Below, in pieces: positions 10,590 through 35,141 of a stretch of 35,454 nucleotides of DNA. This DNA comes from Gemmatimonadota bacterium. Lineage in GTDB: Bacteria > Gemmatimonadota > Gemmatimonadetes > Gemmatimonadales > GWC2-71-9. The stretch is from contig JADFIT010000018.1 of NCBI GenBank assembly GCA_022566515.1, forward strand, positions 1-35,454, in the 5' to 3' direction. Below the pieces are notes generated by a model. That model saw only the letters and a program-made list of their open reading frames with translations. It did no database searches and was not told where the DNA came from. A program made the position numbers and the translations under genes. Within the stretch, counting starts at the first letter, position 1; each line of letters starts with the position of its first letter.

Positions 10590-12011
10590 TCATTGTTTAT
10601 TTGCCGCTGACTCTGCGATTGCCTCAGCCGAGATCCCGTGCTTATCGAGGCGGTATCGTAGGGTGTCACGGCTCAGACAAAGCAGTTCGCCTGCGCGTGT
10701 TTTGTTACCGCGGGCGCGTTGCACGGCTTGACGGATAAGATCTTTCTCGAGTTCCTCCAAGTTGATGCCTCCAGGCGGCAGGGTGAATCCCGGCTCGAGA
10801 TCAATCGCCCTCGCGCCCGGTTGAAGTTCATCCGGTAGGTGTTCGGGTAAGATCTCTCGACCTTCTTCGAGAATGATGGCCCGCTCCAATACGTTGCGCA
10901 GCTCACGGGCGTTCCCCGGCCACGAATATCGTTCGAGCATGGCCAGGGCATCGCGCGAGATGTCCCTGGTAGGTCGTCTCATGGTCTTGATCATCCGCTC
11001 GAGGAAGTACCTTGCCAAGGGCTCAACATCTTCTGGTCGGTCGCGAAGCGGAGGAATCATCAACGGAATGACGTTTATCCGGTAGAAGAGGTCTCGACGA
11101 AACGATCGGTCACGCACTGCGGCTTCCAAGTCTCGGTTTGTCGCGGTAATGATGCGGACGTCGACGGAGATGTCTTGCAAACCCCCGATTCGCTTGAACG
11201 TCCGGGTCTCGAGGAAGCGCAAGAGTTTGGCCTGGGCTCCTGGAGAAAGGTCACCGATCTCATCGAGGAGCACGGTGCCGCGGTCGGCGAGTTCCAATAG
11301 GCCCTTCTTGCGCTCGCGCGCGTCGGTAAACGCCCCCCGCTCGTGTCCGAACAATTCAGATTCGAGCAGCGTATCCGGAAGTGCCGTGCAGTTGATCTCG
11401 AGAAATGGGAACTCGGCACGGGAGCTGTGCGCATGGATCGCATGCGCTACAACTTCCTTGCCGACGCCACTTTCGCCGCGCACAAGGACAGTCGAGGATT
11501 CGCTTGCTGCCACCTTGCCGACCAAATCGACTACCCGTTGCATCGCGGCGGAACGGCCGACGATTTCTACACCGGAGAACTGCCACCCGGCCTGTCGACG
11601 GAGTCCGGACACCGTGCGTTTCAGAGATCGAGCTTCGAGTCCTTTCGCAAGGGTTGTGAGCAGTACTTCGGGTTTCGGCGGCTTCTCTAGAAAATGGTAT
11701 GCCCCTAGCTTCACGGCCTCCACGGCAGTGTCGATGTCACCATGGGCGCTGAGCATGATGATGGCGACATCCGGATCGGTCTCGATGAATTCCTGGAGAA
11801 GGGTCATGCCGTCTCCGTCGGGGAGCTTGAGGTCGAGGATGACGGCATGCGGAGAATTTTTTGGAAAGTTCGCTCGTGCAGCCGCTACGTCTTCAGCGAG
11901 TGTTACCTCGTAGCCTTCATCCTCCAGAAAGACGTCGAGCCACTTTCGAATGAGATCCTCATCGTCGACAACCAAGACACGATCCTTAGCCACGAGTTGT
12001 TCCCTCCTCAT
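10590..12011 (-). CDS. NtrC-family sigma54-dependent response regulator (receiver, AAA+, Fis HTH)
   Basis: Receiver VLVVDDEDLIRKWL...VILDLKLPDGDG; Walker A GESGVGKE; L1 loop GAFTDA; ELADRGTVLLDEIGDLSPGAQAKLLRFLE; C-terminal Fis-type HTH NKTRAGELLCLSRDTLRYRLDKHGI. Confidence 0.95.
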   Translation of the reverse strand: MRREQLVAKDRVLVVDDEDLIRKWLDVFLEDEGYEVTLAEDVAAARANFPKNSPHAVILDLKLPDGDGMTLLQEFIETDPDVAIIMLSAHGDIDTAVEAVKLGAYHFLEKPPKPEVLLTTLAKGLEARSLKRTVSGLRRQAGWQFSGVEIVGRSAAMQRVVDLVGKVAASESSTVLVRGESGVGKEVVAHAIHAHSSRAEFPFLEINCTALPDTLLESELFGHERGAFTDARERKKGLLELADRGTVLLDEIGDLSPGAQAKLLRFLETRTFKRIGGLQDISVDVRIITATNRDLEAAVRDRSFRRDLFYRINVIPLMIPPLRDRPEDVEPLARYFLERMIKTMRRPTRDISRDALAMLERYSWPGNARELRNVLERAIILEEGREILPEHLPDELQPGARAIDLEPGFTLPPGGINLEELEKDLIRQAVQRARGNKTRAGELLCLSRDTLRYRLDKHGISAEAIAESAANKQ

Positions 12012-13746
12012 CGACAAGCGGTAGGGCGATGACAAAGGACGTTCCACCGCCCGGTGTGCTCTCAGCTCTCAGGGACCCGCCATGTCGCTGCACGATCTGT
12101 TGTGAAATCGACAACCCCAGGCCGGTTCCTTGAGGCTTGGTCGTATAAAACGGCCGGAAGATCTCCGAGCGCAACTCCGGCGGGATCCCGGGTCCGGTAT
12201 CACGGACGTCTATCCACACGTCCGGTGGGTGGCGGCTTACACACACCGTCAGCCGACCGGCCGGCGACATCGCCTCAATGCCGTTCAGTAAGAGGTTCAC
12301 CACTACCTGCACCATCAGCTCGGGGTCGACGCGGACCGATGTCGGAGCCTCAGTCGGTTCGACCTTCAGATCGATCTCAGCAGACTTCGCCGGTGCTTCG
12401 ACGATGCGGGCGGCCTGGTCGACGATACTGTTGGCATCCACCACCAATTCTCGAAGCTCTGGAGGGCGGGCGAACTGCAGCATCCGAGTCGTGGTTGTTT
12501 CCATTCGTTGAAGCTGAACTCGCGCCTCGTCCATCAATGGCAGCGTTGGATCGTCCTTGGGAATTCGACGTCGGGCTAGTTCGAGGGCGCCGATGATGCC
12601 GGTGAGTGGATTTCGTATCTCATGCGCGACGCCACTTGCCAATTCGCCGACACTGGCAAGCTGCTGTGCGCGCTCCATCTCTAGATTGTGCAATCGGTTT
12701 ATTTCTTGACGAGATTGTGTCGAGTCGTGCGCCATCTGCTCAAACGACTCGACCAGTGCATCGACCTCTGCCGAGCCCCGGTGGCCGATGGTACTGTACC
12801 GGCCCGTCTTGCCGAAGTCACGGGCCGCGATGGCCAGTTCCCGTAGTGGGGTGGTGATGAAGCGGGACGCGAGATGGGCGATGACGAAGATGAGCAACAC
12901 GAGAATCCCAGCGGCGAGAGCCGCTTGGTTTCTAAGCCTGGCCAGTGGAGCGAGCGCCACGTGGAGTGGGAGAGACGCCATGAGGAGCCAGTTGGCTTCG
13001 GTCACCGGGGCCGACAGCACGAGGGCGGGCACACCTCCTACCGAAGCCTGTACGACATCAACGGCGTCCCGGCTGACAACCCCTGCTGATGCGCGGAGTT
13101 CCGCTGCGCTGTGCGAGTGGGGAATCAAAATGGGGTCACCTGATCGACTGAATACAGCCAGCTCCACTCCCTCCATGAGATGCAACGGCACATCGAAGAG
13201 CCGGGCGAAATCGCCTTGCCGCACATGCCCTTCGAGCCATAGCCGGCGGCCAGCCTCCGGGACCGGGACGGCCATCAGATAGGCAACGACCCCGCTGTCG
13301 CCACTGTGAACCGCCACTGCTTCGACTGTCCAGTCCGCGGCCGGCGCATCCTGAGGCCAGTGGGGTGTGGCATCGCGGAGCGCGACGTCCGCGATCACGT
13401 CGCCGCTGGCATCGACCAGTCGGAGTCCGTCAAATACCCCATCATCGAGGAGGCTATTCCGCAGTAGATCTGCCACCTCATTCCCCAAAGCCGGGCCGCC
13501 CAACGCCTGGTTCGTGAGTTGGCCGACAATGGTTCTTAGGAGCAGTCGCTGCCTGCGAAGTTCTGTGACGAAATGGCCGGCCTGGCGGCTGCCGACCTCC
13601 CACAGCGCCTGCTCCGCTTGCTCGAGAATCGTCGCGCGGCTTACCGCGTAACCCACTCCCATCGACAAGCCTAGCGGGATCGCTCCGAAGGCGAGAAGCA
13701 GTACCAGCAGTTGCGTGTGGAGGCCGAAGCCTTGTGCCTTGATCAT
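11986..13746 (-). CDS. Membrane sensor histidine kinase (large periplasmic sensor domain, HAMP, HisKA, HATPase)
   Basis: Two TM segments flanking about 230 aa; HAMP-like SRFITTPLRELAIAARDFGKTG; H-box ASGVAHEIRNPLTGIIGALE; N-box VNLLLNGIEAM; GTGLGLSISQQIVQRHGG. Overlaps the response regulator start. Confidence 0.93.
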   Translation of the reverse strand: MIKAQGFGLHTQLLVLLLAFGAIPLGLSMGVGYAVSRATILEQAEQALWEVGSRQAGHFVTELRRQRLLLRTIVGQLTNQALGGPALGNEVADLLRNSLLDDGVFDGLRLVDASGDVIADVALRDATPHWPQDAPAADWTVEAVAVHSGDSGVVAYLMAVPVPEAGRRLWLEGHVRQGDFARLFDVPLHLMEGVELAVFSRSGDPILIPHSHSAAELRASAGVVSRDAVDVVQASVGGVPALVLSAPVTEANWLLMASLPLHVALAPLARLRNQAALAAGILVLLIFVIAHLASRFITTPLRELAIAARDFGKTGRYSTIGHRGSAEVDALVESFEQMAHDSTQSRQEINRLHNLEMERAQQLASVGELASGVAHEIRNPLTGIIGALELARRRIPKDDPTLPLMDEARVQLQRMETTTTRMLQFARPPELRELVVDANSIVDQAARIVEAPAKSAEIDLKVEPTEAPTSVRVDPELMVQVVVNLLLNGIEAMSPAGRLTVCVSRHPPDVWIDVRDTGPGIPPELRSEIFRPFYTTKPQGTGLGLSISQQIVQRHGGSLRAESTPGGGTSFVIALPLVDEEGTTRG

Positions 13747-13763
13747 GGGACTACTCGGCGCAG

Positions 13764-13781
13764 GTGGGGCATTTCCCCCGC
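13764..13781. promoter_or_regulatory. Motif site A of the GTGGGGCATWTSCCCCAC near-palindrome (putative enhancer/UAS)
   Basis: GTGGGGCATTTCCCCCGC, 113 bp upstream (start to start) of the sigma54-like promoter at 13877. Confidence 0.75.
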
Positions 13782-13876
13782 TCCGAGGGCCAATCGACCC
13801 GCCCAATTGGCGCGTGGCTGCAGATCCGGCGATGCATAAATATTTGCCATATCAACACTTGTGTCTTTTGCGCCTC

Positions 13877-13892
13877 CGGCTTGGAAATTGCA
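13877..13892 (+). promoter_or_regulatory. Putative sigma54 (-24/-12) promoter A
   Basis: CGGCTTGGAAATTGCA vs consensus TGGCACGNNNNTTGCA; GG-N10-GC spacing correct; upstream of the Spy/ZraP-like gene. Confidence 0.8.
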
Positions 13893-16818: not shown

Positions 16819-16880
16819 GAGAATAGGGATTCCCAGGAACGAGAACCCAGGGTTCCAGTTGCCCTCAAGCGCCGTGAGAC

Positions 16881-16898
16881 GTGGGGCATATCCCCCAC
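16881..16898. promoter_or_regulatory. Motif site B (best palindrome)
   Basis: GTGGGGCATATCCCCCAC; palindromic except one base pair position; 111 bp upstream of the promoter at 16992. Confidence 0.8.
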
Positions 16899-16991
16899 CC
16901 AGTGTGCCTGGTGCCCCGCTCCACTCATTTCTGTTCATCGGTAGCACCACTCAACGCGTTATCTGAAAATGAGTTACGTCGTTGCGCCCTG

Positions 16992-17007
16992 CGGCCTGAC
17001 TAATGCA
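16992..17007 (+). promoter_or_regulatory. Putative sigma54 promoter B
   Basis: CGGCCTGACTAATGCA; GG-N10-GC; upstream of the SHOCT-type ORF and Cu ATPase. Confidence 0.7.
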
Positions 17008-17416: not shown

Positions 17417-19894
17417 ATGAGTTCGAATCCTCGGCTGGAAAGCGACAAGGTGGAGCACCACCGTAAGGTCTCCGAGCCGGCCCACGACCCCGTCTGTGGA
17501 ATGACGGTGGACCCTCAGACTGATCTGAGGGAAGTTCATGCAGGCGTGACCTACGCTTTTTGTAGCGTTCACTGTCAAGCAAAGTTTCGCGAAAACCCTG
17601 AGCGGTACGTGGGTGAAGAGTCGCTGGAGGCAGGCGCTGTCGTTGGCGAGGTAGAGCGGGTCGCGGAGGGGGCCACGTATATCTGCCCGATGGATCCCGA
17701 AATCCGTCAAGATGGTCCCGGCTCATGCCCCAAATGCGGGATGGCATTGGAACCGGAGATCCCGGTGACCCCTGCGACCCGCACTCAATACACGTGCCCG
17801 ATGCACCCGGAGATCGTAAAGGATGAACCCGGGTCGTGCCCCATCTGTGGCATGGCCTTGGAGCCGATGACGGTGACGCTGGAGGAGGAGGAGAACGTGG
17901 AGCTGGTGGACATGCGGCGCCGGCTTTGGTTCAGCGCCGGTTTGTCGGTTCCAGTCTTCTTGATCGCCATGGGGGAGTTTCTCCCGGGAGCGCTGGGAAG
18001 GGTGGCCTCTCTCGGATGGCTGTCATGGGTGGAGTTGGCCCTGGCGACTCCCGTCGTCTTGTGGGGCGGGTGGCCGTTCTTTGTCCGCGGGTGGCAATCG
18101 GTGGTGACCAGGAATCTCAACATGTTCACGCTGATCGCCCTCGGAGTAGGAGTGGCGTACGTGTACAGCCTCCTGGGCACGCTGCTTCCCGGCATCTTCC
18201 CCGCGTCGTTCCGGAATGAACTGGGCGAGGTCGGCGTGTACTTCGAGGCGGCAGCGGTCATTGTCACTCTCGTGCTGCTGGGCCAGGTATTGGAGCTGAG
18301 GGCGCGCAGCCAGACCAGCGCGGCTATCAGGGCACTCTTGGGCCTGGCGCCGAAGACGGCTCGGCTCCTGCGAGACGACGGCACGGAGGAAGACATTCCC
18401 CTGGATCAGGTACAACCCGGAGACCGGCTCCGGGTACGTCCCGGAGAAAAAATCCCGGTTGATGGCGTAGTGGTCGAGGGGAACAGCTCGGTGGATGAGT
18501 CGATGATAACGGGCGAGGCGATTCCCGTAGAAAAGGTGGCCGGCGAACGTGTGGTGGGGGCCACCATCAACGGTACGGGATCGCTGGTGATGCGCGCGGA
18601 ACGTGTCGGCGCGGAGACTCTCTTGTCGCAGATCGTCCGCATGGTTGCCGAAGCGCAACGCAGCCGGGCGCCCATCCAGAAGTTGGCCGACGTCGTGGCG
18701 GGCTACTTCGTTCCGGTCGTGGTGCTGATCGCTGTGGCGACGTTCATCGTGTGGGGATTGGTCGGCCCGGAACCGCGCATGGCTATCGCCTTGATCAACG
18801 CGGTGGCGGTCTTGATTATCGCGTGTCCCTGCGCGTTGGGTCTTGCCACACCGATGTCCATCATGGTTGCCACTGGCAAAGGTGCCACTGTCGGAGTGCT
18901 GTTCAAGAACGCGGAAGCGATCGAGGTGATGCGTAAGGTAGACACGCTCGTGGTGGACAAGACCGGGACTCTGACGCTCGGGAAGCCGAAGTTGGTGAGC
19001 GTGATTCCGGCTGAAGGTTGGAGCGAGGAAGCACTGCTCCGGTCGGCGGCGAGTCTCGAGCGGGGGAGCGAGCACCCCTTGGCCGCCGCCATCGTGGAGG
19101 GTGCAAACGACCGCGGGGTATCGCTTGTTGACACCGAGTCATTCGAGTCGGTAACGGGCAAAGGCGTGAAGGGAACGGTGGACGACCGGGCTGTGGCGCT
19201 GGGCAACCGCAGATTGATGGATGACTTAGGGATCGATCTCGGCGTGCTGGTCGAGCGTGCCGAGGAGATGCGCAAAGACGGGCAGACAGTGATGTTCGTG
19301 GTGGTCGACGGGGAACCTGCGGGGCTCGTCGGTGTCGCCGATCCCATCAAGGACACTACACCCCAGGCGATCGAGCGTCTGCACGAGGAGGGAGTCCGGA
19401 TTACCATGCTGACGGGCGACAGCCGCACCACGGCCGAAGCTGTGAGCAAGAAATTGAATATCGACGAGGTCGTCGCCGAGGTGCTACCCGATCAGAAGGC
19501 CGAGGTCATCAAGAGGTTGCAGAGCGAAGGGCGTGTGGTTGCTATGGCGGGGGATGGGATCAACGACGCCCCGGCCCTGGCTCAGGCCGAGGTCGGCATC
19601 GCCATGGGAACCGGGACGGATGTGGCGATGGAGAGCGCCGGGGTAACTTTGGTCAAGGGCGACCTCCGGGGCATTGTGCGGGCCAGGCGGTTGAGCCGCG
19701 CCACGATGCGAAATATCAAGCAGAACCTGTTTTTCGCGTTCATTTATAATAGTCTGGGCATCCCCATCGCCGCGGGAGTCCTCTATCCGGTTTTCGGTCT
19801 GCTCCTGAGCCCGATGATCGCTGCCGCGGCGATGAGCTTCAGCTCGGTATCGGTTCTGAGCAACGCATTGCGATTGCGACGAGTCAAAATATAG
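17417..19894 (+). CDS. copA: Cu+-type P1B ATPase with N-terminal YHS and two heavy-metal-binding (CPMHPE-type) domains
   Basis: [65 protein letters not shown] and [58 protein letters not shown]. Confidence 0.93.
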
Positions 19895-19945: not shown

Positions 19946-21364
19946 TTATGCGCTCCCCTGTAGCCGGAACGTGACCGTCGTCCCCTTACCAGGTTCGCTC
20001 CAAACGTCGATGCTCCCCTCGTGGCTATCGATAATCGCCTTTGCGATGGGGAGCCCGAGACCGAATCCGCGGGCTTTGCGTCGATCCATGTTCCCGCGGT
20101 AGAACCTGTCGAACAAATTCGCGAGCTGTTTCTCAGGGATGCCCGGTCCGCGGTCCGAAACTGCCAGATCCACCCATCCATCGGCACCCCTCGAGGCTGA
20201 CAGCGTAATCTCGCCGCCACTGGCTCCGTACTTAATCGCGTTGTCAACCACATTCCCTAGGGCGCGGTCAAGTAGTGCCGGGTCCGCCTCGACAACAAGG
20301 TCGAAATCGAGCGTTGTGTGGATATGCAATCCGGCGATTTGCGCCATGGCGCCGAACTTCTTGGCCGTCTTGGACAAAAGGTCGGATACGTCAACCATCT
20401 GCAAGTGAGGTTCCAGCGCTCCACCGTCACTCCGGGCGAGCGTGATAAGATCATCTGCAAGGGTCGAGACATCCTTCAAGTCAGTGAGCGACTGCGCTAG
20501 TACCTTCTGGTATTCGGCCGCGGTTCGGGGGTGTCGTAATGCGACGTCGATGTCGCCGCGAAGAATCGTCAACGGTGTTCTAATCGAGTGGCCGGCGTCG
20601 GCCAAGAAGCGGCGCTGCAGGTCAAGCGTCTCATCGATACGGGTGAGCATTGCGTTGAGAACAGTAACGAGCTGGCTCAGCTCAACGGTATCTGGTTCCG
20701 CCGTGATCCGGTGATGTTGGCGTTTCACCTCGAACGCTTCCGCCTGGCGAGTGATTTCTACCACCGGGCGCACAGCGTACCCGGCGAGCCACCATCCCGC
20801 TCCAGCGCCGCCGGCCATCCCGACCAGTACCAGAACGGCGAGAAATTTGAGAACGTTGCGCAGGACCTCCTCAGTCTCGCCGGTCGAGGTGGCCACCTGC
20901 AAGAGGTGCGGGCGGTGTTGCTCTCCCACCAGCACCAAGGGGTATAAATACGACCGATAGGTGCGGCCATCCAGCTGCACCGTGAAGACCTCGGGCGTGC
21001 CTGTAGCCACAACCCGTTCCCGGACATCGGGGGGGAGCGGCAAGTCCCGCTCACCCAAATTAGCCGTTCGTACCTCGGGACTTCCATCCAACGTCCAGAC
21101 CTCTGCGTACCGCGAGAACACGTCTCCTTCTTCCGTATCCGTGGTCAGGAAGACGGCGTCGTGGAAATGGACGCTCTCGTCGGGAGAATCTGCTGTGGCG
21201 GACGCCTCGATTTCCGCCAGCCGCCTCAGCAGGGCGTCCAACCGTTCGTAAAGCACGTGGCGGAGGGCGACATAGGTCAGCGCCGAGCCGGTCACGGCCA
21301 ACAGCATCGCCATCACGCCGAAACGCAGCGCGAGCCGTCCCCTGAAGGATCGCGTGACGTTCAT
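19946..21364 (-). CDS. CusS-like sensor histidine kinase
   Basis: TM-periplasmic-TM; HISKA DAGHSIRTPLTILRGDIDVALR; NVVDNAIKYG; GLGLPIAKAIIDSHEG. Confidence 0.9.
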   Translation of the reverse strand: MNVTRSFRGRLALRFGVMAMLLAVTGSALTYVALRHVLYERLDALLRRLAEIEASATADSPDESVHFHDAVFLTTDTEEGDVFSRYAEVWTLDGSPEVRTANLGERDLPLPPDVRERVVATGTPEVFTVQLDGRTYRSYLYPLVLVGEQHRPHLLQVATSTGETEEVLRNVLKFLAVLVLVGMAGGAGAGWWLAGYAVRPVVEITRQAEAFEVKRQHHRITAEPDTVELSQLVTVLNAMLTRIDETLDLQRRFLADAGHSIRTPLTILRGDIDVALRHPRTAAEYQKVLAQSLTDLKDVSTLADDLITLARSDGGALEPHLQMVDVSDLLSKTAKKFGAMAQIAGLHIHTTLDFDLVVEADPALLDRALGNVVDNAIKYGASGGEITLSASRGADGWVDLAVSDRGPGIPEKQLANLFDRFYRGNMDRRKARGFGLGLPIAKAIIDSHEGSIDVWSEPGKGTTVTFRLQGSA

Positions 21365-22041
21365 TGCGTATCTGGATGCGACAGGGTGAAGCCGACCGCC
21401 TTCACCGTGTTGATCACTCGCGGGCGACTCGACGCTTCGAGCTTTTTCCGCAAGTGCGCCATATGTACGTCGATGAGGCTGGTCCCCGGATCAAAGGCCA
21501 TTCCCCACACGCGGTCGAGAATCTCGGTTCGCCTCACGACGCGGCCTGGATCCCGCATCAGGACCTCGAGCAGCTTGAACTCGGTGGGGGTGAGGTCGAG
21601 CGGGCGGCCAGCCCGGCGCACTTCATGTCTCATCCGGTCCATCTCAATATCGGCAAACCTCAGAACGCTCTCCTCCACCCGCGGGTTGCGTCGTCCCAAC
21701 GCGCGTAGGCGAGCAAGCAGTTCCGCGAAGTCAAACGGCTTGGTGAGATAATCGTCTGCTCCCACATCCAGGCCGTGCACCACGTCCTGACGCGAGTCCT
21801 TCGCCGTGAGGATGAGGATCGGTGTCAGGTCTCCCTTGGTCCGCAGTTCCGACGTCATCTTGAAGCCACTCTTCCCGGGCAGCATCACGTCGATGACGAT
21901 CACGTCGTATTGACTGACATAGGCATGGGAGAGGCCATCCTCGGCGTCCCCCGACACGTCCACAACGTGTCCCTCTTCGCGCAGTCCCCGGTTGATAAAC
22001 GCAGCGACCCGGGTGTCGTCTTCGACCACCAGAATCTTCAC
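21361..22041 (-). CDS. OmpR/PhoB-family response regulator (CusR-like)
   Basis: VKILVVEDDTRVAAFINRGLREEGHVVDVSGDAEDG, VIVIDVMLPGKSGF, winged-helix LDLTPTEFKLLEVLMRDPGRVVRRTEILDRVWG. GTG start at 22041 preferred over the track start at 22086. Confidence 0.92.
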   Translation of the reverse strand: MKILVVEDDTRVAAFINRGLREEGHVVDVSGDAEDGLSHAYVSQYDVIVIDVMLPGKSGFKMTSELRTKGDLTPILILTAKDSRQDVVHGLDVGADDYLTKPFDFAELLARLRALGRRNPRVEESVLRFADIEMDRMRHEVRRAGRPLDLTPTEFKLLEVLMRDPGRVVRRTEILDRVWGMAFDPGTSLIDVHMAHLRKKLEASSRPRVINTVKAVGFTLSHPDTQ

Positions 22042-22133
22042 AGCTCCCCTAGTCCATTCGGCCAGTCCGGTATGGGCTTTCCCCAAGAAAGCTAGATCGA
22101 ATCCCCTGCGCCCGCATCCAACGACTTCCTGAC

Positions 22134-22162: not shown

Positions 22163-22378
22163 CGTACGCAGGCCGGGTGGGTTTAATCTGCTTGGTTGGA
22201 ACCAGACCTGGGGTTTGTGCCCTCGCCACTCTGCGAGGATCACCTGAATCATGCAGACCAGCAGCCCATGAATGCAGTCAACGGACATAGAGGCCCACAG
22301 CCATCGGAGGCGTTCGACCTCCGCAACGGCGTTCCAGGTTGAGGGGTGGGCTTGCGTAGATCTCACGGCGGCGTCGCG

Positions 22379-24109
22379 ATGGACCGGCGGGATTTCTTGC
22401 TGGCTAGCGGCGCCACCTTTGCCGGCCTCGCTGGGCTCAATAGTTTGCTCCCAGCATATGCGTGGTGTGAAGAGGGCATCGGTGTTGCGCGGGGGGGGCA
22501 AGACCAGGTCTTCGATCTGGTCATCGGCCGTACGGCGGTCCCGATTGGTGACCGGAGCGCGTCCGCGGTGACGGTCAACGGCTCGGTGCCAGCGCCACTC
22601 CTGCGGTTCCACGAGGGCGAGACCGTCACGTTGCACGTTGCCAACACGTTGGATGAGGACACGTCGATCCATTGGCACGGCATCATCCTCCCGAATGGAA
22701 TGGATGGCGTTCCGAAAGTCGCCTTCGCGGGGATCCGACCAGGCGAGTTGTTCACCTACCACTATCCCGTCAGGCAGAGCGGTACTTACTGGTACCACAG
22801 TCATTCGGGATTCCAGGAGCAGCTGGGCGTCTACGGACCCTTGATTATCGATCCGATCGAGCCTGAGCCGTTTGCGTATGACCGCGAGTACGTTGTGATG
22901 CTGTCCGACTGGACCTTCGAGAATCCGAATGATGTTTTGGCGAACCTCAAGAAGATGGGTGGCTACTACAACTTTCAGCGGCGCACACTTGGCGACCTGT
23001 TCCGGTCCTCCGATGCCGGGCTCGGCGACCGATTGCGCTGGGGGCGGATGCGGATGGATGCGACGGACATCGCGGACGTCACTGGCTACACCTACACGTA
23101 CCTGATGAATGGGATGCCGCCCGCCAGCAATTGGACGGGGCTGTTCGAACCGGGTGAGCGGGTGCGCCTCCGTTTCATCAACGCTGCGGCGGGGAGCTAT
23201 TTCGATGTCCGGATTCCAGGGCTCGAGATGACGATTGTGCAGGCCGACGGGCAGAACGTACAGCCGGTGCCCGTGGACGAGTTCCGTATCGCCATCGCCG
23301 AGACGTACGACGTGATCGTGGAACCCTCGGAGGACCGCGCGTACACCATCTTCGCCGAAACAATGGACAGGAGCGGCTACACGCGCGGCACGCTCGCACC
23401 GCGCGCGGGCATGAGTGCGCCGATTCCCGAGCGTCGGTCACGGCCCGTTCGGACGATGGCCGACATGGGCATGTACATGGGGAGCATGGAGATGCGCGGC
23501 GGCATGGCGGTGCCGGAAACGGAGCATGGCCGGCACGGGGAAAACGCTTCGGCCGCCCCCGCTCCGGTCCCACACGGGCCCGATCACCACGGGCCGGGGA
23601 ACTCGGCGGTGCCCGACGTTACCCGACCCCGGCTCGATGACCCGGGCGTTGGCCTCGGCAGCGACGGCCGGCGGGTGCTACTCTACAGCGACCTGCGCAG
23701 CGTCGTGCCGTGGCGCGACACGAGGGAGCCGGGACGGGAAGTCGAGTTGCACCTCACGGGCAACATGGAACGGTATCTCTGGTCGTTCGACGGGAAGAAA
23801 TTCAGTCAGGCCCCTGAGCCCATTCCCTTCCAGCTCGGTGAACGGCTCCGCGTCACGTTCGTGAACGACACGATGATGGAGCACCCCATCCACCTCCACG
23901 GAATGTGGATGGAACTGGATAACGGCTTGGGCGCATTCAACCCACGGAAGCACACGGTGAACGTGAAGCCGGCCGAGCGCCTGTCGGTCTTGGTGACGCC
24001 GGACGTCCCGGGCAAGTGGGCCCTCCACTGCCATATCCTCTATCACATGGAGACGGGAATGTTCCGCGTCGTGGAAGTGTCGAACACCGCTGCAACGGAG
24101 GACAGGTGA
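22379..24109 (+). CDS. Multicopper oxidase, CopA/PcoA-like, Tat-exported
   Basis: MDRRDFLLASGATFAGLAG Tat signal; IHWHGI, YWYHSHSGFQEQLGVYGPLII, HPIHLHGMWMEL, HCHILYHMETGMFRVV copper motifs; Met-rich MADMGMYMGSMEMRGGM. Confidence 0.92.
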   Translation: MDRRDFLLASGATFAGLAGLNSLLPAYAWCEEGIGVARGGQDQVFDLVIGRTAVPIGDRSASAVTVNGSVPAPLLRFHEGETVTLHVANTLDEDTSIHWHGIILPNGMDGVPKVAFAGIRPGELFTYHYPVRQSGTYWYHSHSGFQEQLGVYGPLIIDPIEPEPFAYDREYVVMLSDWTFENPNDVLANLKKMGGYYNFQRRTLGDLFRSSDAGLGDRLRWGRMRMDATDIADVTGYTYTYLMNGMPPASNWTGLFEPGERVRLRFINAAAGSYFDVRIPGLEMTIVQADGQNVQPVPVDEFRIAIAETYDVIVEPSEDRAYTIFAETMDRSGYTRGTLAPRAGMSAPIPERRSRPVRTMADMGMYMGSMEMRGGMAVPETEHGRHGENASAAPAPVPHGPDHHGPGNSAVPDVTRPRLDDPGVGLGSDGRRVLLYSDLRSVVPWRDTREPGREVELHLTGNMERYLWSFDGKKFSQAPEPIPFQLGERLRVTFVNDTMMEHPIHLHGMWMELDNGLGAFNPRKHTVNVKPAERLSVLVTPDVPGKWALHCHILYHMETGMFRVVEVSNTAATEDR

Positions 24110-28021: not shown

Positions 28022-28324
28022 TTACGTCATCGTCCGTGCGCAGTACTCGTGGTGAGTGCCCTGCCCAGCGTAGGCGACGGCGGTAATCAACTGCTCGGTG
28101 GTAACACGCTCGCCGTCGTAAAGCACGCGACTCACAGAGGGCACGAGTTTCACATGGGCTTCAGCCACACCGTCCACGCTCAGCAACGCGTTTCGCACAC
28201 GTATTGCGCAGTTGGGACAACCCATTCCTGCGATTACCAGACGAATCCCCGCCGTAACAAGCCCGTGAGGGGCGCTCTTGGGCTCGATCGGTCGCACGCA
28301 GCAGCCACATTGCGTCTTATCCAT
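28022..28324 (-). CDS. Heavy-metal-associated (HMA) domain protein / metallochaperone
   Basis: IAGMGCPNCAIRVRNALLSVDGVAEAHVKLVPSVSRVLYDGERVTTEQLITAVAYAG; N-terminal CGCC cluster. Confidence 0.85.
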   Translation of the reverse strand: MDKTQCGCCVRPIEPKSAPHGLVTAGIRLVIAGMGCPNCAIRVRNALLSVDGVAEAHVKLVPSVSRVLYDGERVTTEQLITAVAYAGQGTHHEYCARTMT

Positions 28325-28325
28325 A

Positions 28326-29000
28326 TCAACCTTTGATCTGCTTGCTTTCGGTGAGTTCTAACCGGCGCTTTGACGGCTCGCGCGTAAGTGTCTGGATCGC
28401 GCCCGAGCGCTCCTTGGCGTTGGGAACAGAAGAGGTAGTAGGCATGGCTGTCGCCGGCTGGTTTTCCTCCAAATCCATCAGTCGCCGGAAAAGCGCTATC
28501 GGAACGGGACCGTCCCACTCATAGGCGCCGATTTGCCTTTTGACGATCACACCGGCGCGGTTGATGACGTAGCTCTCCGGAACCCCGGTCGTCTGGTAAA
28601 GTCCCTCGATTCGCCGTCCCCGATCTTGCAGAACGTCGAACGTTAGATTGCGCTCCTGCACCCAGCCGAGGACCTTGGCCGTGGGGGCTATATCGATGCT
28701 CACGGCCACGATCTTTAGTCCGTCCGGGCCGAGAGTCTCATGCAGTCGTTGCATGGAGGGCATTTCCTCCTCACACGGTTTGCACCAGGTGGCCCAGATG
28801 TTCAACAGGACGACCTCGCCTCGGTAGTCGGCGAGGGTGGCGATTTCGCCTGTCGCCACGTCGACAGCTTCGAAATCCGGTGCCTCGCTGCCGGGACCGA
28901 TCAATCGACGCTCGGAAGTGAGCGCCGCTGTCACCACGAGCACCGCCGTCAGACCCGCAAGTACGAGACCCACTGCGAACCATTCTGTTTTTGCTGCCAA
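28326..29000 (-). CDS. TlpA/ResA-like membrane-anchored thioredoxin-fold protein
   Basis: N-terminal TM; VVLLNIWATWCKPCEEEMPSMQRLHE; TTG start with AGAGGA upstream; followed immediately by the HMA gene. Confidence 0.88.
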   Translation of the reverse strand: MAAKTEWFAVGLVLAGLTAVLVVTAALTSERRLIGPGSEAPDFEAVDVATGEIATLADYRGEVVLLNIWATWCKPCEEEMPSMQRLHETLGPDGLKIVAVSIDIAPTAKVLGWVQERNLTFDVLQDRGRRIEGLYQTTGVPESYVINRAGVIVKRQIGAYEWDGPVPIALFRRLMDLEENQPATAMPTTSSVPNAKERSGAIQTLTREPSKRRLELTESKQIKG

Positions 29001-29039
29001 GATCGAATCCTCTGGAGTTGTGTGACCGCTTCGTTCTTG

Positions 29040-29055
29040 AGCACGCTCAATGCCT
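29040..29055 (-). promoter_or_regulatory. Putative sigma54 promoter C (weaker match)
   Basis: Minus strand AGGCATTGAGCGTGCT; GG-N10-GC; predicted start about 28 nt before the tlpA-like gene; 112 bp from motif site C. Confidence 0.55.
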
Positions 29056-29149
29056 AGGGGTACTAGTCACCAAAGCGTTGAGTTTCCAACAGGTTATGAA
29101 TGCGTCGCCTCGAGCGGCTTCCCGGTACATGGGTCATGCGCCCCGCGGT

Positions 29150-29167
29150 GTGCGGCAGATCCCCCAC
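29150..29167. promoter_or_regulatory. Motif site C
   Basis: GTGCGGCAGATCCCCCAC (+ strand); flanking CCCAGTATG resembles CCCAGTGTG after site B. Confidence 0.6.
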
Positions 29168-29295
29168 CCAGTATGAGACGACCACCTGCATCCGGTGCTT
29201 GGCGGGGTCACGCCAGACACCCTTGGGATCATGACTTCTGACGTCCCGGGAGCTGTGCTGAACCTCAGAGCACCAGTCAGGAGGCCCAGATGCGA

Positions 29296-29313
29296 GTGGG
29301 GCATTTGCCCCGG
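29296..29313. promoter_or_regulatory. Motif site D
   Basis: GTGGGGCATTTGCCCCGG; 113 bp upstream of the promoter at 29409. Confidence 0.8.
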
Positions 29314-29408
29314 TGGCTGCGGCGTTTACCCCTACTAGCCCGCCTTAGCGAAAAGTTTAGACAGATCTAACACCTTTGCCACCAACATGTTAGCAGAGTT
29401 GGCCCCTT

Positions 29409-29424
29409 CGGCCTGACGCGTGCG
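29409..29424 (+). promoter_or_regulatory. Putative sigma54 promoter D
   Basis: CGGCCTGACGCGTGCG; shares CGGCCTGAC with promoter B; GG-N10-GC; upstream of cusCBA. Confidence 0.7.
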
Positions 29425-29473
29425 TTGGTGTCCTGTGAGGTCGTCTTGTAGAACGTGCTGACAGTGGAGTCTC

Positions 29474-30733
29474 ATGAGGATTCTAAAAGCGTTGGTCATG
29501 CTGGTCCCGATCGTTGCCGGGCCAAGGTTAGCCGAGGCACAGTACCCGTCGGATACGCTGGCTCTTGCGGATGCTATTGGCATCGCTCGGGCGGCGAACC
29601 CGGCACTCCTGGCCGCTCGGTTGCGTGCCGATGCCGCAGTGGAGCGGGTGTCACCCGCTGGAGCGTTACCCGATCCCCAGCTGTCGTTTGGATTCAGGAA
29701 TTGGCCAACGGACTTCGATACCGATCAGGGTATGACGATGAATTCCATTCAGTTGATGCAGCGTTTCCCATGGCCGGGCAAGCTGAAGTTCGGTCGGGAG
29801 AGGATGCGGCACCTGGCAGTGGCCGGTCGACTGGAGACGCAGGAGACTGAGGTGGTCCTGGTAGCAGGGGTCAAGTCGGTTTACTACCAGGTTGCTTATG
29901 TAGATCGGGCTCTGCGGATCATGGAAGAGACTCGAGAACTGCTGCGCGATTTTTACCAAGTTTCTTCAGCCATGTACGGAGTGGGCAGAGGGCTCCAGCA
30001 GGATGTGCTTCAGGCGCAAGTTGCCATTGCAACCATGACGGAGGACATCACCGTAATGGAGCAGGGCCGGGTGGCCATGGTGGCCCGATTGAACGCGCTG
30101 CTGGGCCGCGCTCCTACGGTTCCCGTGGGAGCGTTGGAGTTGCCGGTTCTGACCGGCGTCCTTCCGACGCAGGATTTGTTGATGAGCCTTGCCGCAGAGT
30201 CGCGGCCCGCGTTGCGGGCGGCGCGTGAGCGCGCCAGGGCGGCGGCGGCGGGTTACCGGGCCGCCCGGCGCACGCTTTATCCGGATTTAACGGTCACTCT
30301 GGGATATGGACAGCGGCCTCAGTTTGAGAACCTCGCGACGCTCATGTTCGGAATCAGCGTTCCGTTGTGGGCGGGGTCGCGGCAGCTTCCGCTTCGGCGC
30401 GAGATGGCTGCGATGCAGGCGATGGAGGAAGCCAAGGAGTTGGATCTTTACAACGAAACATTCGCCCGCATCGCCGAGCTTACGGCCGAGGCCGATCGGG
30501 CCCGCAGCCTGTCGGTGCTCTATGCCACGGCTATTCTGCCACAGGCCCGCGCCGCGGTCGAATCGGCGCTGTCCGCATATCGGGTTGGAGAGGTGGATTA
30601 CATGACATTGGTGCAGAACGAAATGACGGTCAACCGCTACGAGATCGAGAGCGTGCGGCTCACGGCCGAGTACCATCGGGCGGTTGCGCAGATCGAAGCT
30701 CTTATAGGCGGACAGATTGGAGAGGTGCAATGA
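29474..30733 (+). CDS. cusC: TolC-family outer membrane efflux protein (CusC/CzcC-like)
   Basis: ALADAIGIARAANPALLAARLRADAAVERV, QRFPWPGKLKFGRERM, GVGRGLQQDVLQAQV, YRVGEVDYMTLVQNEMTVN. Confidence 0.88.
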   Translation: MRILKALVMLVPIVAGPRLAEAQYPSDTLALADAIGIARAANPALLAARLRADAAVERVSPAGALPDPQLSFGFRNWPTDFDTDQGMTMNSIQLMQRFPWPGKLKFGRERMRHLAVAGRLETQETEVVLVAGVKSVYYQVAYVDRALRIMEETRELLRDFYQVSSAMYGVGRGLQQDVLQAQVAIATMTEDITVMEQGRVAMVARLNALLGRAPTVPVGALELPVLTGVLPTQDLLMSLAAESRPALRAARERARAAAAGYRAARRTLYPDLTVTLGYGQRPQFENLATLMFGISVPLWAGSRQLPLRREMAAMQAMEEAKELDLYNETFARIAELTAEADRARSLSVLYATAILPQARAAVESALSAYRVGEVDYMTLVQNEMTVNRYEIESVRLTAEYHRAVAQIEALIGGQIGEVQ

Positions 30734-31986
30734 AACGGCTCGCTGGGTTTTTGGCTTTGGGTGCCGGATGGCTCATCGGCTGCGGTGGCGGCGAAGATTC
30801 TTCTATGGAGGGAATGTCTGCTGCGGAGCACGCACAGATGCAGGCAGGCGGGCCGCAGGGTGAGCTCGACAGCACGGGCGCGATGGTGCGCCAGCCGGTG
30901 CATCTCAGCGCCGCTCAAGCTCGCGCGATCGGCGTTAGATATGCCACAGTCCGGCGTGACAGCTTGACACGCACTATCCGAACGGTTGGACTGATTCAGG
31001 TCCCGGAGCCAAACATCGTAGACGTCACGCCCAAAATCGACGGCTTCGTCGAGGAGCTGTTTGTTGATTACACCGGACAGTCGGTGCGCCGGGGTCAGCC
31101 GCTACTCACTCTGTACAGCCCCATGCTGGTGGCGGCCCAAGAGGAGCTGCTGACAGCGATGCGGCTGGCGTCGCAAGTGGACTCGAGTGCCGATGAAGCG
31201 TGGCGCAATGCCCAAATCATGCTCGAGGCGGCGAGGCGACGCCTGGTTTACTTCGACATCACCCCCGAACAGATCGAGCGAGTGGAAGCCACCGGTGAAG
31301 CGACCAAGACCCTTACCCTTGTCGCGCCCGTCACCGGCATCGTTCTGGAGAAACATGTTGTGCAGGGCCAGCGAGTGATGCTGGGGATGCATCTGTACCG
31401 CCTGGCCGACCTCAGAGAGATGTGGGTGGAAGGGGAGGTGTTCGAGCAGGATCTGCAGTTTGTAAGGACCGGGTCGCAGGCCGAGATCGAAGTCGCTGCC
31501 TACCCGGGAGAGCGCCGCGTGGGCAGGGTGAGCTTCGTTTACCCGATGGTCGACGAGCGGAGCCGTACGAACCGGGTGCGGATCACTGTGCCGAATCGCG
31601 ACATGGCGCTCAAGCCGGGCATGTATGCGACGATTTTCTTCGACGCCCTTATCGGAAGCGACGTTATCGCGATACCGCTCGAGGCGGTCGTGGTCACCGG
31701 GGTGCGTAATCTCGTGTTCGTCCGGGACGACGAGGGCATGCTAATGTCCCGCGAGGTGGTGCTGGGTCCGCGCGGGGGCGACCGTGTGCAGATCCTCGAG
31801 GGTCTGACAGAGGGTGAGACGATCGTCGTCTCGGCCAACTTCCTGATCGATGCCGAGTCACGCCTCGGCAGCAGCGGAGGTGGCATGCCCGGCATGCCTG
31901 GCATGTCGGGCACGCGGAGCGGCGGTGCGGCTGTCGATACGTCCCAATCCCAGCACAGCCAGGATGACACGGAGGGTCAATCATGA
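30730..31986 (+). CDS. cusB: RND periplasmic adaptor (CusB-like lipoprotein)
   Basis: ATGA overlap with cusC; lipobox LIGCGGG; IVDVTPKIDGFVEELFVDYTGQSVRRGQPLLTLYSPMLVAAQEELL; Met-rich tail GGMPGMPGMSG. The track ORF begins upstream in another frame of cusC. Confidence 0.9.
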   Translation: MKRLAGFLALGAGWLIGCGGGEDSSMEGMSAAEHAQMQAGGPQGELDSTGAMVRQPVHLSAAQARAIGVRYATVRRDSLTRTIRTVGLIQVPEPNIVDVTPKIDGFVEELFVDYTGQSVRRGQPLLTLYSPMLVAAQEELLTAMRLASQVDSSADEAWRNAQIMLEAARRRLVYFDITPEQIERVEATGEATKTLTLVAPVTGIVLEKHVVQGQRVMLGMHLYRLADLREMWVEGEVFEQDLQFVRTGSQAEIEVAAYPGERRVGRVSFVYPMVDERSRTNRVRITVPNRDMALKPGMYATIFFDALIGSDVIAIPLEAVVVTGVRNLVFVRDDEGMLMSREVVLGPRGGDRVQILEGLTEGETIVVSANFLIDAESRLGSSGGGMPGMPGMSGTRSGGAAVDTSQSQHSQDDTEGQS

Positions 31987-34900
31987 TTGACAGGATCATC
32001 GAGTGGTCGCTCCGCAACCGCGCGCTCGTGCTTCTCGCTTCGGCGGCGGTAATCGCTGGCGGGATTTGGGCGATGAGGACGATTCCGCTGGACGCCATCC
32101 CCGACCTGTCCGACGTGCAGGTCATCATTCGGACCGACTACCGCGAGCAGGCTCCGGAGATCGTGGAGGATCAAGTCACCTATCCGATCGCCTCGGAGAT
32201 GCTCAAGGTGCCCGGCGCCAGCGTTGTTCGCGGGTATTCCTTCTTCGGACTGAGCCTGGTGTATGTGATCTTCGAGGACGGCACGGACCTTTACTGGGCG
32301 CGATCGCGCGTCCTCGAGTACATGAGCGGTCTGCGTCAGAACATGCCACCGGGAGTGGAGCCCGTGCTGGGCCCGGATGCCACCGGTGTGGGCTGGGTGT
32401 TCATGTACACCCTGGAATCAGACAGCCTGGACCTTGCGGAACTGCGGACGCTCCAGGACTGGTATGTGCGCTACCAGCTTACTGCAGTGCCGGGGGTGTC
32501 CGAGGTGGCGACCTTCGGTGGGTTCGTCAAGCAATACCAGGTGGAGGTCAATCCCGAGCGCCTGCGGGCCTTTGGAATTCCGGTTACCCGTGTCGCACAG
32601 GCCATCGGCGCACATAACACCGACATCGGCGCGCGGGTTCTCGAGATGGGTGGCCGCGAGTATATGATCCGCGGACTCGGATACCTCGACGGTATCGAGG
32701 ACATCGAGAACGTATCCGTAGGAGCCACGTCGATGGGAACCCCTATCCGGGTGCAGGATGTGGCCACCGTGAAGCTTGGGCCCGCGCCTCGTCGAGGTGT
32801 CGCCGACCTGAACGGTCGTGGCGACGTGGTGGCGGGCATTGTGGTGATGCGTTACGGGTCCGATGCGCTCAAGACGATCGAAGCGATCAAGGCTCGTCTC
32901 CGGGAGATCGAGGAGGGGCTGCCGGCGGGTGTCCGCGTGCGTACCGTCTACGACCGCAGCGAGCTGATTCACGAGGCCATCGATACGCTACGCCACAAGC
33001 TACTCGAGGAATCGCTGATCGTGGCTGGCGTGGCGGTGTTGTTCTTGCTCCACTTCCGATCGGCCCTCGTGGCCATCATCGTGTTGCCGCTTGGCATTCT
33101 GGTCTCGTTCATTGTCATGCGTGTGATCGGCGTCGACGCCAACATCATGAGCTTGGGAGGCATCGCCATCGCCATCGGCGTGATGGTAGACGGCGCCATC
33201 GTCATGATCGAGAACATGCACAAGCATCTCGAGCGGGACGAGGGACGCTCGTCGCGGTGGGATATCGTTCTGAAGAGTACCAAGCAGGTTGGGCCGCCGC
33301 TGTTCTTCGCGCTGCTCATCATCACGTTCAGCTTCCTTCCGGTTTTTGCATTGGAGCAACAGGAAGGACGGCTCTTCAAGCCGCTGGCGTTCACTAAGAC
33401 GTTTGCCATGGCTGGTTCAGCCCTGTTGACGATCACATTGGTACCTGTTCTCATGGGATATCTGATTCGGGGCAAGATTCGCCCGGAGGCGGCGAACCCG
33501 GTGAACCGGCTGCTGCGCTGGGTGTACCGACCTATTATCGAGTTTGTCGTCCGGCGGCCGTGGGTGGTCATAGCTGGGTCGCTCGCCCTGCTCGCCGCGA
33601 CTGTCGTCCCGTGGCAGCGTCTCGGCAGTGAGTTCATGCCTCCCCTGGACGAAGGATCGATCCTGTTCATGCCGACCACCGTGCCGGGTGTGTCCATAGC
33701 GCAAGCCCGGAAGATCCTGCGCTACCAGGACAGCGTTCTGTTCTCGTTTCCCGAAGTTGTGTCGGTCATCGGTAAGGCAGGCCGCGCGACCACCGCGACC
33801 GACCCGGCGCCGCTTTCCATGTTCGAGTCGACGATCACGCTCAAGCCGCGGGACCAGTGGCGTCCGGGCATGACGTACAAGCAACTCATTGCGGACATGG
33901 ATAGGGCCGTGCAGCTTCCGGGTGTGACCAATTCCTGGACGATGCCTATCAAGGGTCGCATCGACATGCTCGCAACCGGCATTCGCACTCCGGTGGGCAT
34001 CAAGATCTTCGGCCCCAATCTCGATACGCTGCAGATGCTGGGGGAACGTCTCGAGCCGATCATTCGGGCGGTCCCTGGTACGCGGAGTGTCTTCGCGGAG
34101 CGTGGTGTCTCGGGTTACTACGTCGATATCGATATCGACCGCGCCGAAGCCGCTCGATACGGGCTAAACGTGGGTGATGTGCACAGCGCCATCATGGCCA
34201 CCGTGGGTGGAATCAACGCAGCGATCACGGTGGAGGGACGCGAGCGGTACGCGGTGAACGTGCGGTATCCTCGTGAGCTGCGGGATAACGTAGAGAAGAT
34301 TCGTGAGGTGGTCATCCCGGCCATGGGGGGAGCGCAAATCCCGTTGGGTCAGGTGGCCAGGGTAGAGGCCATCCAGGGTGTCGTGCTCGTCAAGACGGAA
34401 GGTGCGTTTCCGGTGACAAACATTTTTGTGGACATGGGAGGGCGTGACCTGGGGGGCTACGTGAGGGAGGCCCAGCAGGTAGTGGCCGAGCAGTTCACGC
34501 TTCCCCCCGGGTACTCGCTCATGTGGAGCGGTCAATACGAATTCATGCAACGCGTCGCACAGAAGCTGCGTGTTGTGATCCCGGTAACGCTGGCGATCAT
34601 CTTCCTTCTGCTGTATCTCAACTTTGGATCGACTGCCAAATCGCTGATCGTCATGCTCGCGATGCCTTTCTCTCTCGTGGGCGGTGTCTGGTTTCTCTGG
34701 CTCCTTGGATACAACATGAGTGTAGCGGTTTGGGTTGGGTTCATCGCGCTGGCAGGTGTTGCGGCGCAAACCGGCGTCCTGATGATGATCTATCTTGACG
34801 AGGCGTTCGAACGTAGGAGGCTCGAAGGGCGGATGGTCACCGGGAGGGATGTGCGTGACGCCGTGCGAGATGGGGCCCTCGAGCGGTTGCGCCCGGTGAT

Positions 34901-35141
34901 AATGACGGTGACCGCGATCATGGGCGGCCTCGCGCCGATCATGTGGAGTGCGGGAACCGGTGCCGATGTGATGAAGCGGGTCGCCGCGCCGATGGTGGGG
35001 GGTATGGTCACCGCTTCCGCGCTTACGTTGGGCGTGATTCCCGCGATCTACCTCCTTTGGCGGCAGTGGCAGGTCGCTCATCGCCCGCAAGCAATGGTAC
35101 CCGAGTCCCTGCGGGCGGTCGATGGCTCTCAAACCTGGTGA
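31983..35141 (+). CDS. cusA: Heavy-metal RND permease (CusA/HME type)
   Basis: 1052 aa; ATGA overlap with cusB; IPLDAIPDLSDVQVIIRTDYREQAPEIVEDQVTYPI, VIFEDGTDLYWARSRVLEYMSGLR, GIAIAIGVMVDGAIVMIENMHKHLE. Confidence 0.95.
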   Translation: MIDRIIEWSLRNRALVLLASAAVIAGGIWAMRTIPLDAIPDLSDVQVIIRTDYREQAPEIVEDQVTYPIASEMLKVPGASVVRGYSFFGLSLVYVIFEDGTDLYWARSRVLEYMSGLRQNMPPGVEPVLGPDATGVGWVFMYTLESDSLDLAELRTLQDWYVRYQLTAVPGVSEVATFGGFVKQYQVEVNPERLRAFGIPVTRVAQAIGAHNTDIGARVLEMGGREYMIRGLGYLDGIEDIENVSVGATSMGTPIRVQDVATVKLGPAPRRGVADLNGRGDVVAGIVVMRYGSDALKTIEAIKARLREIEEGLPAGVRVRTVYDRSELIHEAIDTLRHKLLEESLIVAGVAVLFLLHFRSALVAIIVLPLGILVSFIVMRVIGVDANIMSLGGIAIAIGVMVDGAIVMIENMHKHLERDEGRSSRWDIVLKSTKQVGPPLFFALLIITFSFLPVFALEQQEGRLFKPLAFTKTFAMAGSALLTITLVPVLMGYLIRGKIRPEAANPVNRLLRWVYRPIIEFVVRRPWVVIAGSLALLAATVVPWQRLGSEFMPPLDEGSILFMPTTVPGVSIAQARKILRYQDSVLFSFPEVVSVIGKAGRATTATDPAPLSMFESTITLKPRDQWRPGMTYKQLIADMDRAVQLPGVTNSWTMPIKGRIDMLATGIRTPVGIKIFGPNLDTLQMLGERLEPIIRAVPGTRSVFAERGVSGYYVDIDIDRAEAARYGLNVGDVHSAIMATVGGINAAITVEGRERYAVNVRYPRELRDNVEKIREVVIPAMGGAQIPLGQVARVEAIQGVVLVKTEGAFPVTNIFVDMGGRDLGGYVREAQQVVAEQFTLPPGYSLMWSGQYEFMQRVAQKLRVVIPVTLAIIFLLLYLNFGSTAKSLIVMLAMPFSLVGGVWFLWLLGYNMSVAVWVGFIALAGVAAQTGVLMMIYLDEAFERRRLEGRMVTGRDVRDAVRDGALERLRPVIMTVTAIMGGLAPIMWSAGTGADVMKRVAAPMVGGMVTASALTLGVIPAIYLLWRQWQVAHRPQAMVPESLRAVDGSQTW

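Follow-up and report, generated by a model that had tools for sequence, protein, structure and literature searches.

Two putative outward-facing sigma-54 enhancer-promoter units between tlpA-HMA and cusCBA in a metal gene cluster of a Gemmatimonadota bacterium

The 473-bp intergenic region (29001-29473) that separates a tlpA-like gene on the minus strand from a cusC-like gene on the plus strand very probably holds two complete sigma-54 units that face outward in opposite directions, one (unit C) for the tlpA-HMA operon and the other (unit D) for cusCBA, both under the NtrC-type regulatory system encoded at 10590-13746. All coordinates refer to the window, the whole 35,454-bp stretch analyzed, which has a GC content of 61% and is a contig from a metagenome-derived Gemmatimonadota assembly of 241 contigs. 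Sequence and comparison with relatives back the predicted dyads, their tandem arrangement, the promoter elements, the spacing, conservation at both genes, and the presence of RpoN and the regulator. In the mechanism we propose, a metal signal would act through the kinase to give the phosphorylated NtrC-type regulator, which would bind two GGGK-A--T-MCCC dyads separated by two helical turns (21 bp); once on the DNA, the AAA+ oligomer would loop across the ~97 bp between the distal dyad and the -24 element to sigma-54 polymerase at -24/-12 and would spend ATP to open the polymerase complex. Enhancer C would thereby serve promoter C and tlpA-HMA, and enhancer D would serve promoter D and cusCBA. 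Binding of the regulator to the dyads, copper or silver as the signal, and co-induction of both promoters are what we infer from the gene content (a copper-type P-type ATPase and CusA).

Promoter C is a -24/-12 element on the minus strand (AGGCATTGAGCGTGCT, 29040-29055) with GG-N10-GC intact and 8 of 12 specified consensus positions matched, and promoter D is a plus-strand element (CGGCCTGACGCGTGCG, 29409-29424), likewise with GG-N10-GC intact and with 7 of 12 positions matched. Both show the features by which sigma-54 promoters are recognized, a GG and a GC dinucleotide with 10 bp between them, set in a sequence like TGGCACG-N4-TTGCW. Each is preceded by a distal dyad, which an earlier note on this DNA had called site C or site D, and by a proximal dyad 21 bp nearer the promoter. 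For enhancer C these are GGGGGATCTGCCGC at 29152-29165 and GGGGCGCATGACCC at 29131-29144 (both minus strand, both 9/10 to the dyad consensus); for enhancer D they are GGGGCATTTGCCCC at 29298-29311 (plus strand, 10/10, a near-perfect palindrome) and GCGGCGTTTACCCC at 29319-29332 (plus strand, 8/10). From the end of the distal dyad to the -24 GG, the spacer is 97 bp in C and 98 bp in D. Starts predicted from the GC dinucleotides fall at 29029 (minus) and 29435 (plus), which would give leaders of ~30 nt for tlpA (29 nt) and ~40 nt for cusC, with plausible ribosome sites. The distal dyad centers lie ~128 to 130 bp and the proximal ones ~107 to 109 bp upstream of these predicted starts, and the dyads thus occupy the interval, roughly 80 to 150 bp upstream of a -24/-12 promoter, that characterizes an NtrC-type UAS. 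The divergent promoters are 354 bp apart, and each enhancer is ~250 bp from the promoter of the opposite operon. No sigma-70-like promoter or terminator was seen in the tlpA-cusC region, including the stretch before cusC; a terminator hairpin was also considered as a reading of this region and found no support.

A base-by-base check agrees with the earlier note on both motif copies and both -24/-12 elements, and its spacings are exact when counted, as it did, from the first G of GTGGGG to the first base of the 16-nt -24/-12 element (29167 to 29055, or 112 bp, for C; 29296 to 29409, or 113 bp, for D). Its remark that promoter C is the weakest match does not hold up, because a promoter matrix built from 24 units outside the window scores the four promoters of the window at 12.3 (A), 11.0 (B), 9.4 (C), and 8.1 (D). 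The weak part of unit C is its distal dyad, which has one mismatch (9/10) and is the weakest distal dyad of the four units; the proximal dyad GGGGCGCATGACCC compensates for this imperfection.

The gene that unit C faces encodes a TlpA/ResA-like thioredoxin-fold protein of 224 aa (28326-29000, minus; TTG start, Shine-Dalgarno AGAGGA; Pfam AhpC-TSA, E 1.7e-24). It is the first gene of its operon, and the second encodes an HMA-domain metallochaperone of 100 aa with the motif GMGCPNC (28022-28324, minus; Pfam HMA, E 2e-9), which is CopZ/MerP-like at scores below the NCBIfam cut-offs. On the other side, unit D faces the gene for a CusC-like outer-membrane efflux protein (29474-30733, plus; Pfam OEP, E 6.9e-35), the first of cusCBA, followed by an open frame that holds cusB (30367-31986, plus; Pfam HlyD_D23, E 6.5e-73; true start probably near 30730) and by cusA, a heavy-metal RND pump (31983-35141, plus) that at 1151 bits is over the cut-off of the NCBIfam CusA/CzcA family.

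Two further units of the same design lie elsewhere in the window, both on the plus strand. Unit A (13766-13892; dyads 13766-13779 and 13787-13800, promoter 13877-13892) leads to an LTXXQ (ZraP-like) gene at 13997 (plus; E 5.5e-7) and stands between it and the kinase gene at 13746 (minus); a LolA-like gene (14727) follows the LTXXQ gene. For the kinase gene, which runs on the opposite strand, the distal dyad of unit A is ~20 bp upstream of the likely ATG (13746-13779), so binding there could also affect expression of the kinase-regulator pair. Unit B (16883-17007; dyads 16883-16896 and 16904-16917, promoter 16992-17007) leads to a 70-aa open reading frame and a copper P-type ATPase at 17417, which has a CPC motif and is over the NCBIfam copper subfamily cut-off. 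The metal cluster also holds an OmpR-type, CopR/CusR-like kinase-regulator pair (19946-22086, minus; regulator 21361-22086, below the family cut-off) beside a multicopper oxidase (22346-24109, plus), and it therefore contains two different kinds of metal-linked two-component system, one NtrC-type and one OmpR-type.

The proposed activator of units A to D is an NtrC-family response regulator (10590-12047, minus; Pfam REC, Sigma54_activat, and HTH_8), and its partner is a membrane histidine kinase (11986-13746, minus) with HAMP, HisKA, and HATPase_c domains that is AtoS/ZraS-like below the cut-offs. The regulator has the receiver, AAA+ sigma-54 interaction, and Fis-type HTH domains of its family together with a GAFTGA-type loop. 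In place of the canonical GAFTGA, this loop reads GAFTDA, a form kept in the orthologs (two relatives at 53 to 55% identity have GAFSDA) and listed among the loop variants expected to keep activity (PMC4641369). RpoN is encoded in the window's own genome (PF04552, E 5.9e-64). The presence of the regulator goes with the presence of the unit across 22 genomes: a cusC unit was found in 7 of 7 genomes whose regulator ortholog is 71% identical or more (in one of them a contig end interrupts it) and in 3 of 15 that lack such an ortholog (Fisher p = 7e-4), the three exceptions being only 61 to 67% complete. The same genome encodes, on contig C53, a paralogous NtrC-type regulator that is 57% identical and may bind similar sites.

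Conservation at tlpA and at cusC separately supports the earlier note's central claim that there is one enhancer-promoter unit per operon rather than a tandem pair for one promoter. The two closest full-length tlpA orthologs (G008 and G059, at 61% and 53 to 60% identity) both carry a C-type unit, as listed GGGTGATTTGCCCC, spacer 98, GGGCACCTAACTTGCT and GGGTTATCTGCCCC, spacer 97, CGGCATTCTCCTTGCT. The distance from dyad start to tlpA start codon is 166 and 169 bp in these orthologs and 165 bp in C. Since tlpA carries the unit in two other genera, at the same position relative to its start codon and not seen divergent from cusC, we assign site C to tlpA, and these ortholog units are the strongest evidence for C as the putative enhancer of tlpA itself. 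In G008, cusA and tlpA share a strand, with tlpA the downstream gene, and the tlpA unit is thus independent of the divergent arrangement. Identity among the three tlpA units is 81% in the distal dyads, 60% in the proximal dyads, and 65% in the promoter, and 28 to 31% in spacers and flanks. Most tlpA homologs (about 50% identity) are other TlpA/ResA proteins without units, and in the remaining 38 sequences scanned upstream of tlpA, which come from 31 distinct homologs with several in duplicate, no unit was seen at the ~97-bp spacing.

The cusC side gives a matching picture. D-type units with a spacer of 96 to 98 bp precede cusC orthologs in nine further genera, and cusC has a unit of its own also at loci without a nearby tlpA. 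A spacing-blind scan of 23 cusC upstream regions, which started from dyads matching 10/10 and covered spacings of 20 to 220 bp, returned 12 promoter-like matches, nine of them at 96, 97, or 98 bp; the remaining three were at 90, 120, and 166 bp, none of them one helical turn away. The cusC region of G104 adds a tenth unit, with a 9/10 dyad. In orthologous units, identity is 0.78 to 0.81 in the distal dyads and 0.59 to 0.65 in the promoter, with spacers at a background of 0.28 to 0.35, and the spacer from distal dyad to GG is 95 to 99 bp in 28 of 28 units, a range to which the search itself partly confined them. In G056, an independent second divergent pair has its minus unit (GGGGCAAGTGACCC, with tandem partner GGGTCACCGCCCCC, spacer 97, and promoter AGGCACTCCGCTTGCC) directed at a DUF5676 membrane gene and its plus unit (spacer 98) directed at cusC. 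Because the partner gene there is DUF5676 and not tlpA, divergent pairs seem to form as modules with their own switches come together.

The genome of the window also offers a check on the rule outside the window. An exact-motif search found a further unit on contig C53, next to the second NtrC-type kinase-regulator pair; this unit has a spacer of 98 and a TGGTACGCACCGTGCT promoter, and the spacing rule therefore predicted a promoter beyond the reach of the earlier note. A second cusCBA in this genome (contig C119, 5319-9000; cusC 66% identical) has no enhancer-promoter unit and is probably under other control. In another genome, G019, a full unit (C15:7318-7442) precedes the gene for an 869-aa RND/MMPL-like exporter, with a LolA-like gene after it, which suggests that envelope or lipid genes also belong to the regulon.

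Each enhancer is a tandem, with a second, weaker dyad 21 bp, or two helical turns, nearer the promoter, a feature absent from the earlier note. Across the 28 units, dyads at +21 score 6.6 on average, where the background is 3.1, and a dyad of at least 7/10 occurs at +21 in 15 of 28 against 1.4% at other offsets. With the six discovery units removed, the +21 dyad is still found in 9 of 22 (p about 5e-11), though the units share descent and the p values overstate their independence, even with linkers and spacers that have drifted. The +21 position outscores the -21 side in 26 of 28 units; in the intergenic region, the second-dyad score is 9 on the tlpA side of C against 5 on the opposite side and 8 on the cusC side of D against 3. 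The tandem is thus what appears to give an enhancer its direction, with C facing minus and D facing plus, and the outward and opposite orientation of the two second dyads agrees with one unit per operon. The earlier note has the motif facing the minus strand only here, and C is the sole minus unit in the window, but a direction is not readable from the single motif because it is near-palindromic (site C has 2 mismatches to the consensus on the plus strand and 3 on the minus strand). Beyond the dyad, sites B and C share 42 nt at 79% identity in the same plus orientation (16865-16906 and 29134-29175), possibly a remnant of duplication. At three other loci (contig C53 9425-9550 of the window's own genome, G208 C1:2894031, and G372 C20:8642), which lie near the 57% paralog regulator or in other families of the class, the second dyad seems to be offset by ~22 to 24 bp and not 21; this different tandem phasing may mark that clade.

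Could all this be chance, the product of GC-rich palindromes and loosely matching -24/-12 sequences in DNA of 61% GC? Taken singly, the elements are indeed frequent: the window has 191 loose GG-N10-GC sites (4 or 5 mismatches), and loose dyads, at around 100 per genome, number 127 per strand against 98 in the reversed-pattern control, so nearly equal that they do not discriminate alone (our genome-wide statistics are pattern searches with such controls). When they are combined into one rule (a dyad of at least 9/10 to GGGKNANNTNMCCC and a GG-N10-GC with at least 7 of 12 consensus positions at a spacer of 95 to 99 bp), both strands of the whole 35-kb window contain exactly four units, A, B, and D on plus and C on minus, every one before metal genes. 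A search of 399 genomes from the phylum with the composite pattern returned metal units plus scattered other matches. Among 4,000 dinucleotide shuffles of the 473-bp region, just one produced a minus unit (0.00025), and no divergent pair arose. Because relatives had already been seen when the dyad consensus GGGKNANNTNMCCC was refined, the window scan is not fully blind, and for this reason we lean on the orthologue comparisons, which are stronger evidence than either the scan or the shuffle test. Given orthologous conservation across drifted spacers, coincidence is hardly credible as an explanation, and for unit D we regard it as refuted.

The remaining alternatives read the elements differently. 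Enhancers C and D might form one four-dyad block between two sigma-54 promoters, a shared array that loops to both. Such sharing would be in keeping with the distance changes that sigma-54 enhancers tolerate (NtrC at glnA acts from 70 to over 1000 bp; PMC7408454), with the ~250 bp between each enhancer and the other promoter, and with the precedent of zraP/zraSR, where divergent sigma-54 promoters are under one activator (PMC4987338). A shared block would need neither the near-fixed spacing that each gene retains in its own unit even when alone nor a second dyad in each enhancer pointing to its own promoter, and we consider it unlikely. Partial cross-activation between C and D may occur all the same: the distance of ~250 bp lies within the NtrC-type range (PMC7408454), and tlpA may therefore have activators besides C.

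Much less probable is that C and D are a tandem pair for cusCBA only, with tlpA-HMA transcribed from an unrelated promoter. The slightly better fit of C to the consensus on the plus strand and the stretch it shares with unit B in that orientation would favor this, and the B-C similarity did lead us to consider C as plus facing, a reading rejected for want of a plus promoter at the right spacing. The tlpA orthologs carry their unit without an adjoining cusC, the region shows no sigma-70-like promoter to take over tlpA-HMA, and the cusC genes of relatives have the D-type unit without a C-type second enhancer, except for the outward-facing one in G056. There is similarly little to recommend the view that the dyads are operators for a different regulator, whether a repressor or the OmpR-type CopR-like protein at 21361-22086, and that the -24/-12 matches are incidental. 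A CopR/CusR-like pair is indeed present in the same metal cluster, but a dyad 96 to 98 bp from GG-N10-GC in many genera is the layout of a sigma-54 enhancer and not of an OmpR-type site, and the unit tracks the NtrC-type regulator. Several points do count against our preferred reading of two outward-facing units: promoters C and D fit the -24/-12 consensus less well than A and B do; the distal dyad of site C has its one mismatch; the OmpR-type pair (19946-22086) could also control cusCBA, in the manner of CusSR/CopRS, where an OmpR-type regulator would bind just upstream of a sigma-70 promoter; and the 57% identical paralog may bind sites of this kind.

The textbook view is that sigma-54 enhancers tolerate distance. 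Near-constant spacing across about a dozen genera, with the spacer sequence drifting, is at odds with that view, and we entertain tentatively the idea that these enhancers are length-locked and directional, none acting on any promoter but its own. A dyad pair at 21 bp, the weaker member promoter-proximal, would then set a single loop length, with spacers of 96 to 98 bp and not the neighboring helical repeats. If so, separate control of two divergent promoters at a distance of 354 bp would require no insulator, in contrast to the distance-tolerant NtrC type. The layout amounts to an exact, testable DNA code that opens the reasons for the placement of bacterial enhancers to direct test, and the divergent C/D pair is a natural place for testing promoter specificity. 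It also gives a phylum with few cultured members a concrete putative sigma-54 metal regulon comprising an efflux pump, a P-type ATPase, a thioredoxin-chaperone pair, and an LTXXQ protein. In the open-access literature that we searched, no such regulon is described for Gemmatimonadota.

Among known systems, ZraSR/zraP of Escherichia coli and Salmonella, with its divergent sigma-54 promoters (PMC4987338), offers a close parallel, as both systems pair an NtrC-type regulator with a membrane kinase, a metal or envelope signal, and divergent sigma-54 promoters. The resemblance extends to unit A, where the LTXXQ (ZraP-like) gene, with its predicted sigma-54 promoter, runs divergently from the kinase-regulator pair. 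Unlike ZraSR, the present regulon adds a P-type ATPase, CusCBA, and TlpA-HMA, each target with its own enhancer at near-fixed spacing, and the regulator, at 333.6 bits, misses the cut-off of 760 of the ZraR equivalog model (NF007689) by such a wide margin that we do not file the system as ZraSR. CorSR of Myxococcus xanthus is a sigma-54-dependent copper-tolerance two-component system whose targets include copA and a multicopper oxidase and whose cluster has several putative -24/-12 promoters, according to the parts of its description consulted here (PMC3707914). It resembles the proposed regulon in these respects; it differs in gene content and order and belongs to another phylum, and those parts describe no CorSR enhancer motif or spacing (PMC3707914). 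DVU2106 of Desulfovibrio vulgaris, a GAFTDA-loop activator of two divergent orp operons via sigma-54 (PMC4641369), shares the loop and the divergent operons with the system described here but is single-component, with cell-division and not metal targets. The NtrC enhancer of glnA, where an upstream set of at least two activator sites acts on a sigma-54 promoter by looping (PMC7408454), shares the multiple sites and the looping, whereas its distance is freely variable and that of the present units is 95 to 99 bp (28 units, partly screened for it). In sum, a ZraSR/CorSR-like sigma-54 metal regulon with near-fixed geometry, a known type of control in an unusually rigid layout, is a well-supported reading of these sequences.
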